Source: a bacterium BMS3Bbin08
GTDB taxonomy: Bacteria > Nitrospirota > Thermodesulfovibrionia > UBA6902 > BMS3Bbin08
Reading direction: 5' to 3'
DNA length: 64,000 bases
NCBI GenBank assembly: GCA_002897775.1
Contig: BDTR01000020.1
Span: forward strand, 1 to 64,000
Positions within the stretch are counted from its first letter, which is position 1. The number at the start of each line of letters is the position of its first letter. A model generated the notes under the pieces. That model worked only from the letters and a program-made list of their open reading frames with translations. It searched no databases and had not been told where the DNA came from. Of the stretch, positions 1,900-31,447 are shown one piece after another. The position numbers and the translations under genes were made by a program.

Positions 1900-3681
1900 A
1901 TGTCCTCTTATAACAACGACCAGGAAGAAATAAAAAGCAGGTTAGACATTGTTGATGTAATATCCGAATACGTGTCGCTGAAGAAGGCAGGACAGAACTG
2001 GAAGGGGCTCTGTCCCTTCCACGCGGAGAAGACCCCGTCTTTTATGGTCAGCCCCTCAAAACAGATATACCACTGCTTTGGATGCGGAAGCGGAGGGGAT
2101 ATCTTCACTTTTCTCATTAAAAATGAAAACCTTTCTTTTCAGGAGGCGCTGCGCGTCCTGGCAAAAAAAGCCGGGGTTTCGCTTCAGAGGACCCGGGTAC
2201 AGACCGCGGCCGTGGGGTTAAAGCAGAGCCTGCTTGATCTGCATAAGGACGCCGCGCTTTTTTATCAGCAGAACCTGAAGCCAAACACGAAACCCCTGAA
2301 CTATCTGAAAGGCAGGGGAATAACAGCGGAGATCCAGAAGCGCTTTTCAATAGGATACGCGCCTGACACCTGGGACGCCCTTCTTTCTTATCTTAAGAAA
2401 AAGGGATACAAGGCTGACCTTATTGAAAAGGCGGGGCTCGTTACGAAAGGGAAAAAGGGTTTTTACGATACATTCAGAAACAGGATCATCTTTCCGATCT
2501 TTGATATGAGGGGAGAGGTTATCGCTTTTGGAGGCAGGGTCATGTCGGAATCGACCCGTTCCGGGGATAAAGCCATGCCCAAGTATCTTAACTCGCCGGA
2601 GACGCCTATTTTCAGCAAAAGCAGGGTGCTTTACGGGCTTGACCTGGCAAAAGAAACGATCAAAAAAACAGGATTTGTTATTTTTGTAGAGGGTTACCTG
2701 GATGTTATAACATCCCATATGTACGGGTTTGCGAACGCGGTGGCCCCGCTTGGTACCGCGCTTACGCCGGAGCATGGGAAATTGATCAAAAGGTTTACGC
2801 AGGACGCGGTTATAGTTTTTGACGGTGACGCGTCAGGGATTAAGGCGGCAAAGAGCGGTATCAGCGTACTTCTGGAGTGCGACCTTAATGTGAAGGTGCT
2901 GTCCATGCCGCTGGGAGAGGACCCTGACAGTCTCCTGAAGAAGCAGGGCAAAGAGGCATTTGACGCCCTGATCCGGAAAGAGCAGTCAATAGTTGATTTT
3001 TTTGTGTTTGCCGGGGGCGGGTCGCAGCAGGAGGGCGGCGCGCGTCTCATAGCCCGCGAGGCCCTTGAAATAATTTCCAGGATACCTGACAGTGTTCTGC
3101 AGGGCTCCTATACCAAACTGCTCGCGGAAAGACTCGGGATAAACGAACTTTTTATCCGGGAAGAGCTGGGGAAGGTCAAAAAAAGACTGCGTACCAGGAG
3201 GCCGCAAAGGCCTGATGCCGCGTCTGTAAAAGAAAGCCCCCGTGTTTCCGGAGCGCGTGCCTCGGCAAGACCCAGGGATGAAATGTACATACTGCAACTG
3301 GTCCTGCAGTTCCCGGAGATGGCGGAGAGTATTTTTAGCACTGTTTCGGCAGATGACCTGGATGATTCTGTCGCGAGATCGATTTTCAAAAAAATGGAAG
3401 CGGGCCTGATAAGTTCTAACGATCTGATATCAGAATGCAGTGAAGAGGAAAAGAACCTGCTTACCGCGCTTTCTTTAAAGACCGAGTTCGCGTTTGATAC
3501 TGAATCAGGCGATCCTGAGAAACTGCTGGCGGACTGCGTGAAGCGAATCAGGTTTAGAAAGCGGCAGGCACTGCTTAACGGGCTTCAGGACAAAATAAAA
3601 AAGGCTGAGTCTGAGAAAGACCATCATTTGTTAAAGACCCTTCAGCGGGAACACCAGAAACTGCTCAGGTTAAAGGGGTAA
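1900..3681 (+). CDS. dnaG: DNA primase
   Basis: A 593-residue DnaG that synthesises RNA primers at the replication fork. The N-terminal CHC2 zinc finger is present (C38, H41, C59, C62 in CPFH and CFGC). The TOPRIM domain shows the catalytic glutamate in FVEGYLDVI (E264) and the DGD metal site at 308-310. The remaining C-terminal third fits the helicase-binding region. ATG 1900 was preferred over an in-frame TTG at 1891. It lies 5 bases upstream of rpoD, so the two are co-transcribed. A 21-bp inverted repeat precedes it. Confidence 0.97.
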
Positions 3682-3686
3682 TCAGC

Positions 3687-5276
3687 ATGACCGGGAAATT
3701 AAACGGGGTTACGACCGGTGGAAAAGAAGAAGAGGAAAACATTAGGGGCGGCGCCGCTGAAACCGCACCCGATGCCATAGATAAAGAAACAATAACTCAT
3801 AAGATCGAGCTTACCCCGGATGACCCGGCAAGAATATACCTCAGGGAAATGGGAGCTGTCTCCCTGCTGACAAAGGAAGGAGAAGCCGAGGCCGCAAAAA
3901 AAATAGACAGGGGCAAAGAAAAAGCGGCCGGGGTAGTTTTCGCGATGCCGTTCACCATCAACAGGGTTTTATCTTTTGCCGGACTGTTAAAGAAAAAAGA
4001 GATGCAGACAAGAGACGTGGTGTTAATGGGAGAAGAGGTGTCTTACGCGGAGGAGCGGGATACTTTAAACGGGTTTTTGAAAACCGTCAGGTCAATAAAA
4101 CATCTCTATAAGAAGAAGAACCTGTATATGACGAAACTGAAAGACAAAAGATTGGGACGCAAAAGTATCGAAGCGTTAACGGAAAAATTAACGGCTAACA
4201 GCCGGCTTATGGTCAGCAGAATTTTCAGTCTCTGCCTTAAGGAAGAAATTATTGCGGCCCTTCTGCGGCAGTTCAGGGAATATACGGCCCGGTATGCCGG
4301 CATTGCCGGAGAAATGGACAGTATTCGCAAGAGACATGGAACATCAGGCAGTAAACAGAGGCGCGGGGGCGCGGCGGCAGCACGCTCCTCCGGCAGGAAG
4401 GTGAAGAGGGCGGACACGGCAAAGCGCCTTTCTATGGATCACAGGCAACTTGTCAGCGAAAAAGATTTTATAGAGTCTGAGCTGGGTCTCTGGGGTGATG
4501 AGGTGAAAAAGGCAATAAGGCTTTGTATGCGCGGAGAGAAAGAGGAGCTTGAAGGCAAGGACCTGCTTGTAGAGGCGAACCTCAGGCTTGTGGTAAGCAT
4601 TGCGAAGAAATACATAGGTAACGGCCTCAGTCTGTCGGACCTGATCCAGGAGGGCAACATTGGACTGATGCGGTCGGTTGATAAGTTTGAATATAAGAGA
4701 GGTTATAAATTCAGCACGTATGCTACATGGTGGATAAGGCAGGCCATTACGCGGGCCCTGGCAGACCAGGCAAGGACCATACGGATACCGGTCCATATGG
4801 TGGAGACCATGAACCGGGTTACGCGCGCTTCAAATGATCTTGTTCAGGAATCCGGTTGCGAGCCGACTGCCGATGAGATAGCGGAAAAGATGGGTATGCC
4901 CCCGGGGAAGGTAAAGGCCATTCTCAGGATATGCAAGGAGCCTGTGTCCCTGGAAACCCCCTTTGGTAAGGAGGATGACAGTATTTTAGGGGATTTCATA
5001 GAGGACAAGACCGTGCCCTCACCGCTGGAATCAGTCCTTCATAATGACCTTCAGAGTCAGATAAGAAAAGTAATGGCGACCCTTGATGAAAAAGAAGCGG
5101 CGATCATCAAGAGGCGTTTTGGCATTGAAAATGACGCGGCCCGCACTCTTGAGGAGGTCGGACAGGAGTTCAGGGTTACGCGGGAAAGAATACGGCAGAT
5201 AGAAGCAAAGGTCATAAAAAAACTAAGGCATCCGACAAGAAGCAGGCTGCTAAAGAGTTTTGTGGAAGGCCTGTAG
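3687..5276 (+). CDS. rpoD: Primary RNA polymerase sigma factor RpoD
   Basis: A 529-residue group 1 sigma-70. Region 1.2 is near residue 47 ([11 protein letters not shown]). A variable charged linker follows, then region 2 with [17 protein letters not shown] near 318 and [10 protein letters not shown] near 348. The region 4 helix-turn-helix ([19 protein letters not shown]) begins near residue 495. It starts 5 bases after dnaG, the classical dnaG-rpoD pairing. It would be the housekeeping factor recognising the TTGACA/TATAAT-like promoters seen elsewhere in the window, for example at mgtC. Confidence 0.97.
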
Positions 5277-27702: not shown

Positions 27703-27731
27703 GGAACAATTACACTTTTTTAATTGTCTAA
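27703..27731 (+). promoter_or_regulatory. ECF (sigma-E-like) promoter in front of the ECF sigma gene
   Basis: GGAACAA (27703-27709), a 16-base spacer and GTCTAA (27726-27731) match the sigma-E type consensus (GGAACTT and GTCTAA). The same arrangement with the same spacing precedes the DUF4139 gene (29807-29835), which supports autoregulation. The -10 box ends 4 bases before the ATG, implying a leaderless transcript. Confidence 0.7.
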
Positions 27732-27735
27732 CATA

Positions 27736-28344
27736 ATGAGTGAGAAGGCACATCAAAATCCTGATACTGATCATGAGATCATCCTTAAATGCCAGGAGGG
27801 TGATGTTGAGGCATTTGAGGGCATTGTAGGGAAGTACCAGAAAAAAATGTTCAACATATCATACAGGATAACAGGAGATTACAATGATGCCGCTGAAGTG
27901 GCGCAGGACGCGTTTGTCTCCGCTTTCAAAAACATAAAGGCATTCAAGGGAAGGTCAAGGTTCTCGACCTGGCTGTATACCATAGTGGTTAATCTGTCGA
28001 AGAACCGCCTTAAGCAGACAAGAACCCGTTCTTATCGCGAACAGATGTCCCTGGATGACCCTGTTGAAACAGATGACGGACAGATAATTATAGAGCCTGT
28101 TTCAAATGACCTGTCAGCGCTGGAAAAACTGGAAAAAAACGAGATCGCGGGAAGGGTTCAGAAATGCATTGACGCGCTTGAAAGCGGTTTCAGGGAAGTC
28201 ATTGTTTTAAGGGACATGCAGGGTTTTGCTTATGAGGAGATCAGTGATATGCTTAATACAGCAGCAGGTACAGTTAAATCACGGCTGCACAGGGCGCGTG
28301 AGGCTGTAAAGAACTGCCTTAAAATGGCTGCAGGAGCTTTATAA
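27736..28344 (+). CDS. ECF-type RNA polymerase sigma factor (RpoE/SigW-like)
   Basis: A 202-residue group 4 sigma factor. Region 2 spans residues about 20-90 (GDVEAFEGIVGKYQ, RITGDYNDAAEVAQDAF, STWLYTIVVNLSKNRL). Region 4 spans about 135-195 (REVIVLRDMQGFAYEEISDM, GTVKSRLHRAREAVK). It is followed one base later by a zinc-finger anti-sigma gene, the standard pair for envelope stress. ATG 27736 lacks a ribosome site; an in-frame TTG at 27724 lies inside the -35/-10 region of the putative promoter and is unlikely. Confidence 0.93.
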   Translation: MSEKAHQNPDTDHEIILKCQEGDVEAFEGIVGKYQKKMFNISYRITGDYNDAAEVAQDAFVSAFKNIKAFKGRSRFSTWLYTIVVNLSKNRLKQTRTRSYREQMSLDDPVETDDGQIIIEPVSNDLSALEKLEKNEIAGRVQKCIDALESGFREVIVLRDMQGFAYEEISDMLNTAAGTVKSRLHRAREAVKNCLKMAAGAL

Positions 28345-28345
28345 C

Positions 28346-29299
28346 ATGAAATGCAGCGATATTGAAAAGAAATTATCAGCATATATAGAAGAGATGCTCT
28401 CTGGAGAAGACAGGAAGCAGGTAGACGCGCATCTTGAGACATGTTTGCAATGCAGGGCTTCTCTGGATGACCTGGAGAGGTCTATCGCGTATACACAGGG
28501 GATCGAGGAAGTGGAACCGCCGGTATGGCTTAAACAGAAGGTCATGGCAAGGGTGAGACAAGAGGGCAGGGCTAAAAAAGCTATTTTCCAAAAGCTGTTT
28601 TTCCCTTTGCATATAAAAGTGCCTATTGAGGTTATTGCGACCCTGGCAGTGGCTGTAACAGCCTTTTATGTGTTTAAGTCAGTTGAGCCTGACATGAAAA
28701 TGGCATATGCCCCGGCAGAGCAGGACATAACTTCCAGGCAGGAAGAGATAAAGGGGTTAAAAAAGGATGAATATTTTGCTGGAACAGCGCCGGGTTACGG
28801 CATGTCCGGCACCGCGGAAAAACAGAGGGTCAGAATAAAAACGGATGATATGGACGAGGCTGATCAGCGGCAGGAACCAGAAGCCTTAGACGAAGAAAGG
28901 CCGGTCCCAAAGGCAGCTTACAGGGTCCCCCCTCAGATGAAGGCAAAAGAGGAACTCGAGAGTGCTGTTGCCGGATCAAAACTATTGGCTGATACGGAAC
29001 AGCCTGCTGTCAGTCTGACAGTTTATGTTGAGGATATTGAAACCGCCGGAAAAGAAATTGAAGCGGCAATAACCCGGCTTAATGGTAAAATGATCAGGAC
29101 AGAGTCTTTTGAGGATAAAGATGTCCTCATTGCTGAACTTAATGCTGAAAAAGCCGATGAGTTGAACGAACGACTTGGGCAAATTGGAGAAGTTAAGGGG
29201 AAGGAGGCTTTGTTGGCACTTGAAGACAAAGAGCCCCTGTCCCCGGGGGTCGTGGGAATCAAGATAGAAATTGTGAGAGTATCAGGGCATATCAAATAA
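28346..29299 (+). CDS. Anti-sigma factor with zinc finger and periplasmic domain
   Basis: A 317-residue membrane protein. The N-terminal anti-sigma zinc finger has H and CLQC (HLETCLQCRASL, residues 28-40). A single membrane helix (VPIEVIATLAVAVTAFYVF) follows near residues 90-110. A long charged linker leads to a periplasmic C-terminal domain (about 220-310, SLTVYVEDIETAGKEIEAAI) resembling DUF2275. It should hold the preceding sigma factor inactive until an envelope signal releases it. The assignment of the C-terminal domain to DUF2275 is from memory of the family and tentative. Confidence 0.85.
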   Translation: MKCSDIEKKLSAYIEEMLSGEDRKQVDAHLETCLQCRASLDDLERSIAYTQGIEEVEPPVWLKQKVMARVRQEGRAKKAIFQKLFFPLHIKVPIEVIATLAVAVTAFYVFKSVEPDMKMAYAPAEQDITSRQEEIKGLKKDEYFAGTAPGYGMSGTAEKQRVRIKTDDMDEADQRQEPEALDEERPVPKAAYRVPPQMKAKEELESAVAGSKLLADTEQPAVSLTVYVEDIETAGKEIEAAITRLNGKMIRTESFEDKDVLIAELNAEKADELNERLGQIGEVKGKEALLALEDKEPLSPGVVGIKIEIVRVSGHIK

Positions 29300-29374
29300 C
29301 TGATTACAGCCGCTTTTTTTGTGATATGATGAACATCAAAGAAGATGCCATTTGGTGATTAAAGGAGAATGAAA

Positions 29375-29680
29375 ATGAAGAACAATGAGAAACTATTCAA
29401 TGAAATTGCCAGAGTTGCATATCACCTTTTCGAGAAGAGGGGAAATGTCCATGGGTATAACGTTAAAGACTGGATAGAGGCAGAAAAGACAGTGATGCAG
29501 AAGCACGCCAAAGAAATAGAGCATGAGGCTGAGGATATCAGTTCAGCAAAAAGAAAGAAGACAGCAGTTAAGAAAAAAACAGAGGTTTCACAAGCATCTC
29601 AAAAAACGTCCGGTAAAGCCGTAAAGAAAGCTGTAAAGAAAAAGAAAGCCACTAAGAAAGCTGTAAAGAAAAAAAACTGA
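29375..29680 (+). CDS. DUF2934 protein with lysine-rich histone-like tail
   Basis: A 101-residue protein. The N-terminal half (IARVAYHLFEKRGNVHGYNVKDWIEAE, in two parts) matches DUF2934. The C-terminal half is lysine/alanine repeats (KKAVKKKKATKKAVKKKN) like histone H1 tails, suggesting DNA or RNA binding. ATG 29375 is chosen because AAAGGAG at 29361-29367 is 7 bases upstream; the ATG at 29369 would be too close. It lies between the sigma/anti-sigma pair and the DUF4139 gene. A weak hairpin (AAGAAT 29683-29688, ATTCTT 29695-29700) follows the stop. Confidence 0.85.
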   Translation: MKNNEKLFNEIARVAYHLFEKRGNVHGYNVKDWIEAEKTVMQKHAKEIEHEAEDISSAKRKKTAVKKKTEVSQASQKTSGKAVKKAVKKKKATKKAVKKKN

Positions 29681-29806
29681 CTAAGAATAGCCGGATTCTT
29701 TATTCCTATAAAAGGGATAATTAAGCATGGTGGCCCCGGAACTCCGGCTGCGTTAATTCCTTCCAGTCATTGATAAACAGCTAAAAAACCTCTCAATCAT
29801 TCCCCG

Positions 29807-29835
29807 GGAACTTTTTCCAAACCTCCTTTGTCTAA
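29807..29835 (+). promoter_or_regulatory. ECF (sigma-E-like) promoter for the DUF4139 gene
   Basis: GGAACTT (29807-29813), 16 bases, then GTCTAA (29830-29835) is an exact match to the sigma-E consensus. It has the same spacer length and the same following bases (CA) as the promoter ahead of the ECF sigma gene. The ATG at 29934 is 98 bases downstream. Confidence 0.75.
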
Positions 29836-29933
29836 CAAGCTAAAGCCATTCCAACAAATGGCTGATGACACAGATCCTAAGGACGATTACACCGATAATA
29901 TGATCTGTGAAATTAAAAAAAGGAGGTTTAAAG

Positions 29934-31406
29934 ATGAGAGAGAGAGTTCTGGCAGTAAGGAAATTCAATGTTATTTTGCTGGTGTTGCTTCTTTTTTTAA
30001 CAACCGGCTGTGAGAGTGTCGAGGCAAAAAAGCCGGACACAAAGGTCCATTCCATGTCTACAGATCAGAATGACCAGGCTGATATAGCGTTGACTGTTTA
30101 TAACGTTAACCTGGGGCTGGTCAAAGACGTCCGGGACATAAAACTTGCAAGGGGCCTCAGTGAACTCAGGTTTATGGATGTCGCGTCAGGTATTATCCCA
30201 ACAAGTGTTTATATCCGGTCGCTTAAGAACCCTGACAGCCTGAGTATTCTTGAGCAGAATTATGAGTATGACCTGCTTAATCCCAAGAAACTGCTTGATA
30301 AATACGTGGGTAAGACGGTAAAGCTTTATAACATGAACCCTTATACCGAGAGGGAACAGTTGGTTGAGGCCACGGTGCTGTCAAACAACGGACAGCCCAT
30401 ATTCAGGATCGGCGATGAAATAACTTACGGTTATCCCGGCAGGATCATATTCCCGGGTGTTCCTGATGACCTTATTCCAAAGCCCACACTTGTATGGCTT
30501 CTGGAAAATGACCTGCTCTCTACCCAGAAGGTGGAGGCGTCGTACCTGACCAATGGCATTAACTGGCTCGCGGATTATGTCGTAACGCTTAATGACAGGG
30601 ATGACAAGGCGGGCCTTTCAGGATGGGTGACCATTGATAACAGGAGCGGCGCAACTTACCGGGACGCGAAATTAAAGCTCGTTGCAGGCGATGTGAACAG
30701 GGCAGGGAGTGATGTCGGCTACAGGCAAAAGATGATGAAGTATGCCCTTGCAGAGGTCGACTCGGCCCGGGAACAGTTCACAGAGGATGCGTTTTTTGAA
30801 TATCACATATACACGCTGCAAAGGCCGTCGACAATAAAGAACAACCAGACAAAGCAGATAAAGCTTGTTACCGCGGCTGATATACCGGTGAAAAAGGAGT
30901 TCCTGTACTACGGCGCAAGGTACTACTACCGGAGCCGGTACGGCGAAAAAATATCCAACCAGAAAATAGGGGTCTTTGTTGAGATATCGAACAAAAAAAG
31001 GAACAATCTGGGCATGCCCCTGCCAAAAGGCACTGTACGGGTGTATAAACATGATAAAGAGGGAAGCCTTCAGTTCGTGGGCGAGGACTCGATCGACCAT
31101 ACTCCAAAGGACGAAAAAATAAGGATCAAGCTGGGCGACGCGTTTGATGTTGTTGGGAGCAGAAAGCAGACAAGCTGGAAAAAGATCGCGTATGATACTT
31201 ATGAGGCGGGCTTTGAGGTGTCTCTCAGAAACCACAAAAAGGACAGGGTCGTGGTGAAAGTAATTGAGCCTATCCCCGGCGACTGGAAGATGATACGCTC
31301 TAACCATTCCTACAATAAAACAGAGGCATTTACCGCGGAGTTCAATATCCCGGTACCCAGTGATAAAGAGGTAAAGCTCAAATATAAGGTAAGGATGAGG
31401 TTCTAG
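29934..31406 (+). CDS. DUF4139 domain lipoprotein, putative ECF sigma target
   Basis: A 490-residue envelope protein. The N-terminus (VILLVLLLFLTTGC) is a lipoprotein signal with the cysteine near residue 25. The mature part matches DUF4139-type proteins, with VTLNDRDDKAGLSGWVTIDN and the late beta-rich VEISNKKRNNLGMPLPKGTV region. The function of this family is unknown. ATG 29934 is 8 bases after AAAGGAGG (29918-29925). An exact ECF promoter lies upstream, so it probably belongs to the regulon of the sigma factor 2 kb upstream. A strong terminator follows. Confidence 0.85.
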   Translation: MRERVLAVRKFNVILLVLLLFLTTGCESVEAKKPDTKVHSMSTDQNDQADIALTVYNVNLGLVKDVRDIKLARGLSELRFMDVASGIIPTSVYIRSLKNPDSLSILEQNYEYDLLNPKKLLDKYVGKTVKLYNMNPYTEREQLVEATVLSNNGQPIFRIGDEITYGYPGRIIFPGVPDDLIPKPTLVWLLENDLLSTQKVEASYLTNGINWLADYVVTLNDRDDKAGLSGWVTIDNRSGATYRDAKLKLVAGDVNRAGSDVGYRQKMMKYALAEVDSAREQFTEDAFFEYHIYTLQRPSTIKNNQTKQIKLVTAADIPVKKEFLYYGARYYYRSRYGEKISNQKIGVFVEISNKKRNNLGMPLPKGTVRVYKHDKEGSLQFVGEDSIDHTPKDEKIRIKLGDAFDVVGSRKQTSWKKIAYDTYEAGFEVSLRNHKKDRVVVKVIEPIPGDWKMIRSNHSYNKTEAFTAEFNIPVPSDKEVKLKYKVRMRF

Positions 31407-31420
31407 GCCTGTAAGCGGGC

Positions 31421-31447
31421 AAAGGGGGTCGATCCGACCCCCTTTTT
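31421..31447. terminator. Intrinsic terminator, possibly bidirectional
   Basis: AAAGGGGGTCG (31421-31431), a 3-base loop and CGACCCCCTTT (31435-31445) continuing into T's give a strong hairpin plus T-run for the plus strand. The A's on the left provide a shorter T-run for the opposing gene ending at 31483. Confidence 0.9.

Follow-up and report, generated by a model that had tools for sequence, protein, structure and literature searches.

The 64-kb window, by which we mean the whole stretch of DNA analysed here, carries a sigma factor gene, an anti-sigma gene and two promoter-like boxes of the same design. Does this sigma factor read both boxes, and which genes would it then control? An earlier note on this DNA had proposed sigma autoregulation and a local regulon with a DUF4139 lipoprotein gene and perhaps a DUF2934 gene as members. 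We suggest, with a probability of about 90% as judged from sequence, that an RpoE-like ECF sigma factor here governs a small, self-contained regulon.

The sigma gene (27736..28344, + strand) encodes an RpoE/AlgU-like protein of 202 aa. Pfam confirms an ECF sigma factor, with Sigma70_r2 and Sigma70_r4_2 (PF04542 and PF08281, sigma-70 regions 2 and 4) as in the ECF group (group 4), and the nearest solved structures are proteins deposited as sigma-H, sigma-E and SigW types. Against the RpoE equivalog TIGR02939 (NCBIfam) the protein scores 137.1 bits, far under the cut-off of 236.15, and we therefore call it RpoE-like and not RpoE.

The anti-sigma gene is located at 28346..29299 (+ strand). In brief, Pfam and alignment indicate a zinc finger (zf-HC2, likewise confirmed by Pfam), a hydrophobic segment at approximately residues 93-112, read from the sequence, and a variable outer domain with a DUF2275 match. 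Residues His29, Cys33 and Cys36 (H-x3-C-x2-C) are invariant in 12 relatives. The Hx3Cx2C motif is the signature of class I (ASDI) anti-sigma factors (PMC7406223). With this motif at its N-terminus, a membrane segment and a gene adjoining the sigma gene, the protein has the features of a zinc-binding anti-sigma factor of this class. Its identity to relatives is 24-43%, against 66-72% for the far better conserved DUF4139 protein.

Two boxes are read from the sequence, both on the + strand. Box 1, GGAACAA-16-GTCTAACA at 27703-27733, precedes the sigma gene; its elements (27703..27731) are a -35 GGAAC(AA) at 27703-27707, an 18-nt gap and a -10 GTCTAA at 27726-27731. Box 2, GGAACTT-16-GTCTAACA at 29807-29837, precedes the DUF4139 gene; its elements (29807..29835) are a -35 GGAAC(TT), an 18-nt gap and a -10 GTCTAA at 29830-29835. 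Both fit an RpoE-type promoter, with a GGAACTT -35 and a -10 of the TCtAA/TCAAA type; the RpoE elements reported are -35 GGAACTT and -10 TCAAA (PMC12153292). Exact GGAAC-N18-GTCTAA occurs twice in the window, at 27703 and 29807, whereas 100 dinucleotide shuffles of it gave a mean of 0.02 matches and none of the 100 reached two. The earlier note had described two boxes with equal spacer and -10 near the sigma/anti-sigma pair, and was right in sequence, coordinates and strand.

The DUF2934 gene (29369..29680, + strand; Pfam match above cut-off) encodes a protein with a Lys-rich tail. No separate box precedes it, although box 1 might serve it by co-transcription. No DUF2934 homologue was found in the comparison loci of related genomes, and the gene is not conserved in this neighbourhood. 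The suggestion that this protein serves envelope stress thus finds no support, and we dropped it as a regulon member.

The scan proposed in the earlier note was run over the whole genome (2.7 Mb) as GGAAC-N18-GTCTAA and gave three exact matches, all 5' of sigma or exported-protein genes. Two are those in the window. The third is at positions 350-378 of contig C25 of the same genome (G000), 68 nt 5' of the ATG of a gene (C25:447-1253, locus L067) for a 269-aa exported protein. Here we use C25 also as the name of this family of approximately 265-aa exported proteins; the member in this genome has a sub-threshold Pfam match only (DUF7918). The regulon proposed as local is thus local in having two boxes at the locus, and it reaches beyond it to at least one further target elsewhere in the genome.

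Sites with one mismatch number 26 in this genome, against 46 for a reversed-pattern control, and about half of them are inside reading frames. Since their count does not exceed the control, we take only exact boxes as informative and claim no wider regulon; weaker targets may exist among these background-level sites. Two near-identical one-mismatch sites, GGAACTCAAATGTCAATA[A/G]TCATGTCTGA, are located 616 bp apart at C18:20516 and C18:21132 (G000) and are apparently part of a repeat. The latter is 142 nt 5' of an ORF whose start resembles an ATPase P-loop.

The strict motif GGAACW-N16-TGTCTAA, which leaves N18 between GGAAC and GTCTAA, was sought in 101 related genomes. It gave 39 matches at N18, none with one base less (N17) and two with one base more (N19), that is, conserved -35 and -10 elements with a rigid spacer as in ECF promoters. 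A reversed strict pattern gave approximately 20 matches against the 39; because its letter order differs, we prefer the off-spacing controls. Judged by location and homology, 30 of these matches precede four known gene families, namely sigma in 11 cases, DUF4139 in 7 (with one at a contig end), the C25 family in 9 and exported VIT/VWA proteins in 3. The nine other N18 matches (G002:C48, G020:C1, G033:C566, G038:C268, G040:C227, G058:C1, G070:C68, G088:C76 and G096:C1:1078564) lie near none of these families and are either background or further targets.

It is mainly in genomes with the cognate anti-sigma gene that target genes appear to have a box. Where a genome has a clear anti-sigma relative, a box precedes seven of nine DUF4139 genes; in the other genomes it precedes one of 15 (Fisher 7e-4, uncorrected for shared ancestry and with G050 inferred across a contig break). 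Two DUF4139 genes, in G083 and G096, have no box although the anti-sigma is present. For VIT proteins the box is found in 6/6 cases with the anti-sigma and 0/5 without it (Fisher 0.002, again uncorrected for shared ancestry; three of the six boxes have one mismatch). All ten genomes with the C25 family have a box at the gene, one of them with a mismatch. In L109 (G040:C75:4195-4513) the C25-family gene is apparently frameshifted and the exact box is retained.

A scan of named genomes for the DUF4139 family found it in Nitrospirota, Geobacteraceae and other Deltaproteobacteria records, Methylomirabilota, Rokubacteria and Omnitrophota, with the closest named relatives of the window's host among Nitrospirota/Thermodesulfovibrionia records. 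Nitrospirota, Rokubacteria and some Deltaproteobacteria records have sigma, anti-sigma and DUF4139 in this order, with a box before the sigma gene and another before the DUF4139 gene. About half of these wider DUF4139 loci are without a box, mostly those without an adjacent sigma gene, and no box was found at the Geobacteraceae loci. Nitrospirota loci have a gap of 18, and Rokubacteria and most Deltaproteobacteria pairs one of 17. Of 22 loci, 21 have equal spacers in their sigma and DUF4139 promoters (13 with 18/18 and 8 with 17/17; uncorrected for shared ancestry). In our view no other single argument speaks as strongly as this match for one sigma factor reading both promoters.

Box 2 resembles the general RpoE consensus, and among the ECF sigma factors of the genome we considered only that of the locus; it might therefore be a chance match or be read by another ECF sigma factor. 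We hold this to be highly improbable, as box 2 keeps its place across many genera, its spacer is as long as that in the promoter of the adjacent sigma gene, and the presence of the box goes with that of the anti-sigma. Both regulatory proposals of the earlier note gain from the comparison: autoregulation from a box 1 conserved at the sigma gene in several phyla with a spacer matched to the DUF4139 promoter, and control of the DUF4139 gene from a box 2 at the same position across several phyla with the matched spacer.

The DUF4139 gene (29934..31406, + strand), the predicted regulon target of the window, encodes an exported protein with a weak Pfam match (26.1 bits, under the curated cut-off of 31.8); homologues 71-72% identical to it score above the cut-off. 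A lipobox-like cysteine is found in the window protein (LTTGC) and in its homologue L057, and others have an export signal without the cysteine. The description as a lipoprotein fits these two and is not a conserved feature of the homologues. A terminator-like hairpin 3' of the gene (31421..31445, + strand) comes from a consensus scan only. Searched by profile against solved structures, DUF4139 gave no match and C25 one insignificant match, and the AlphaFold models, with a mean pLDDT of 41 and 37 respectively, are too poor to use. A literature search, with most subscription journals outside it, found no paper with both DUF4139 and a sigma factor; the papers mentioning DUF4139 were unrelated by title. 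A published description of this ECF group could exist.

Two further points were missed in the earlier note; they concern where the sigma gene starts and what the box 2 spacer contains. The sigma ATG is located 4 nt past GTCTAA and is without a Shine-Dalgarno sequence, from which we suggest that the sigma mRNA is probably leaderless. Among 32 boxed sigma genes, 18 have a start codon exactly 4 nt after the -10 (16 ATG and 2 GTG). The Shine-Dalgarno sequence is absent in 24 of 25 sigma genes with a close start and present in 43 of 46 target genes. Two loci, L059 (sigma at 4866) and L151 (sigma at 3134), do not fit a leaderless start: with no gap left between their -10 box and the sigma ATG, RNA started from the box could not carry the sigma start codon.

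These two loci bear on the alternative that box 1 is too near the ATG to give a translatable sigma mRNA at all. Active sigma would then mainly transcribe the anti-sigma gene, which has its own Shine-Dalgarno sequence (AGGAG 5' of its ATG), and the outcome would be negative feedback and not amplification. In the Mycobacterium tuberculosis sigma-H complex the T residues of the GTT element are at -10 and -9 relative to +1 (PMC6411747), and by this numbering +1 would be expected at the base that follows the A of the sigma ATG. Start-site choice may however move by a base or two, and with ECF sigma-L scaffolds having 4-7 nt from the -10 region to the downstream duplex were all functional (PMC6372665). 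The 4-nt distance is moreover sharply peaked, as would be expected if a start at the A were selected for, and the window offers no alternative sigma start codon with a Shine-Dalgarno sequence. Overall we consider the alternative unlikely and keep to the probably leaderless, autoregulated sigma gene.

The spacer of box 2 contains AAACCTCCTTT (29819..29829, + strand), an 11-nt perfect complement of the Shine-Dalgarno sequence of the DUF4139 gene, AAAGGAGGTTT (29919..29929, + strand). It is a candidate anti-Shine-Dalgarno element: RNA reading through from the sigma operon would leave DUF4139 untranslated, and the protein would be made only from RNA started at box 2. Predicted folds agree with this, as the Shine-Dalgarno sequence is masked in the read-through RNA (z -2.8) and stays open in RNA started after box 2; the folding is a prediction only. 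CCTCC occurs in 12 of 38 DUF4139 spacers versus 0 of 32 sigma spacers (Fisher 2.5e-4, inflated by related loci). Spacers also show better pairing with the ribosome site of their own locus than with those of other loci (permutation p 5e-5 overall, 0.03 in N18 and 0.001 in N17, with the same inflation). Against this, the element is missing in about two thirds of the loci, and the spacers are pyrimidine-rich anyway (77%). The reading is compatible with the regulon proposed above, and we put it somewhat short of an even chance and offer it as a lead. A similar two-transcript arrangement is found in bacteriophage T4 gene e, where the ribosome site is hidden in a long RNA and accessible in a shorter one started at an internal promoter; at the DUF4139 gene the predicted mask is the spacer of an ECF promoter.

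Based on the boxes, their positions and conservation, the matched spacers and the co-occurrence with the anti-sigma gene, all of which come from sequence and comparison, we suggest the following circuit, in which we infer promoter activity, signal, leaderless translation and target function. The membrane anti-sigma, with its cytoplasmic zinc finger, one hydrophobic segment and an outer domain, would keep the sigma factor inactive. The outer domain would sense an envelope condition and the sigma factor would be released, to start transcription with RNA polymerase at GGAAC-N18-GTCTAA. From box 1 it would transcribe the sigma/anti-sigma operon, giving amplification together with a built-in supply of inhibitor, and from box 2 the gene of the DUF4139 exported protein. 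The third box, elsewhere in the genome, would serve a second exported protein, of the C25 family; in some relatives a VIT/VWA exported protein would be a target instead or as well. The best reading of the predicted regulon is approximately three transcription units supplying exported proteins. The membrane anti-sigma and the exported targets suggest a role in envelope stress.

A more far-reaching version is a cross-phylum ECF circuit in which a leaderless autoregulatory sigma gene is combined with a DUF4139 promoter spacer that acts as anti-Shine-Dalgarno and silences read-through RNA. We think it rather unlikely that both twists hold together. If they did, DUF4139 protein would be made only when the sigma factor itself starts transcription. 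The conserved, probably leaderless start and the candidate anti-Shine-Dalgarno spacer can be tested by simple reporters, and the predicted regulon is small enough for a direct test of its output. The circuit would tie DUF4139, the C25 family and VIT/VWA exported proteins to one stress-type switch in uncultured groups, and this link is a lead on when these uncharacterised exported families are made.

The predicted system shares parts with several known ones. ECF36 sigma factors are fused to a DUF2275 anti-sigma extension (PMC8999054). The anti-sigma of the window likewise has a DUF2275 domain, but it is encoded by a gene separate from that of the sigma factor and has a zf-HC2 domain. ECF systems with a class I (ASDI) anti-sigma (PMC7406223) are alike in the N-terminal Hx3Cx2C, the membrane segment and the gene adjoining that of the sigma factor, whereas DUF4139, DUF2275 and Nitrospirota are all unmentioned in that paper. 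RpoE of E. coli and AlgU of P. aeruginosa are alike in several respects: the sigma factor is nearest to structures of this type, the -35 is near-identical (GGAACTT) and the -10 similar, and an autoregulated sigma/anti-sigma operon, a membrane anti-sigma and exported targets are predicted here too. Unlike in RpoE/AlgU, the sigma factor scores 137 bits against an NCBIfam RpoE cut-off of 236, the anti-sigma has a zinc finger and its outer domain gives no RseA-type match, the predicted regulon comprises only three units with uncharacterised targets, the sigma mRNA is probably leaderless, and each lineage keeps to one spacer length.
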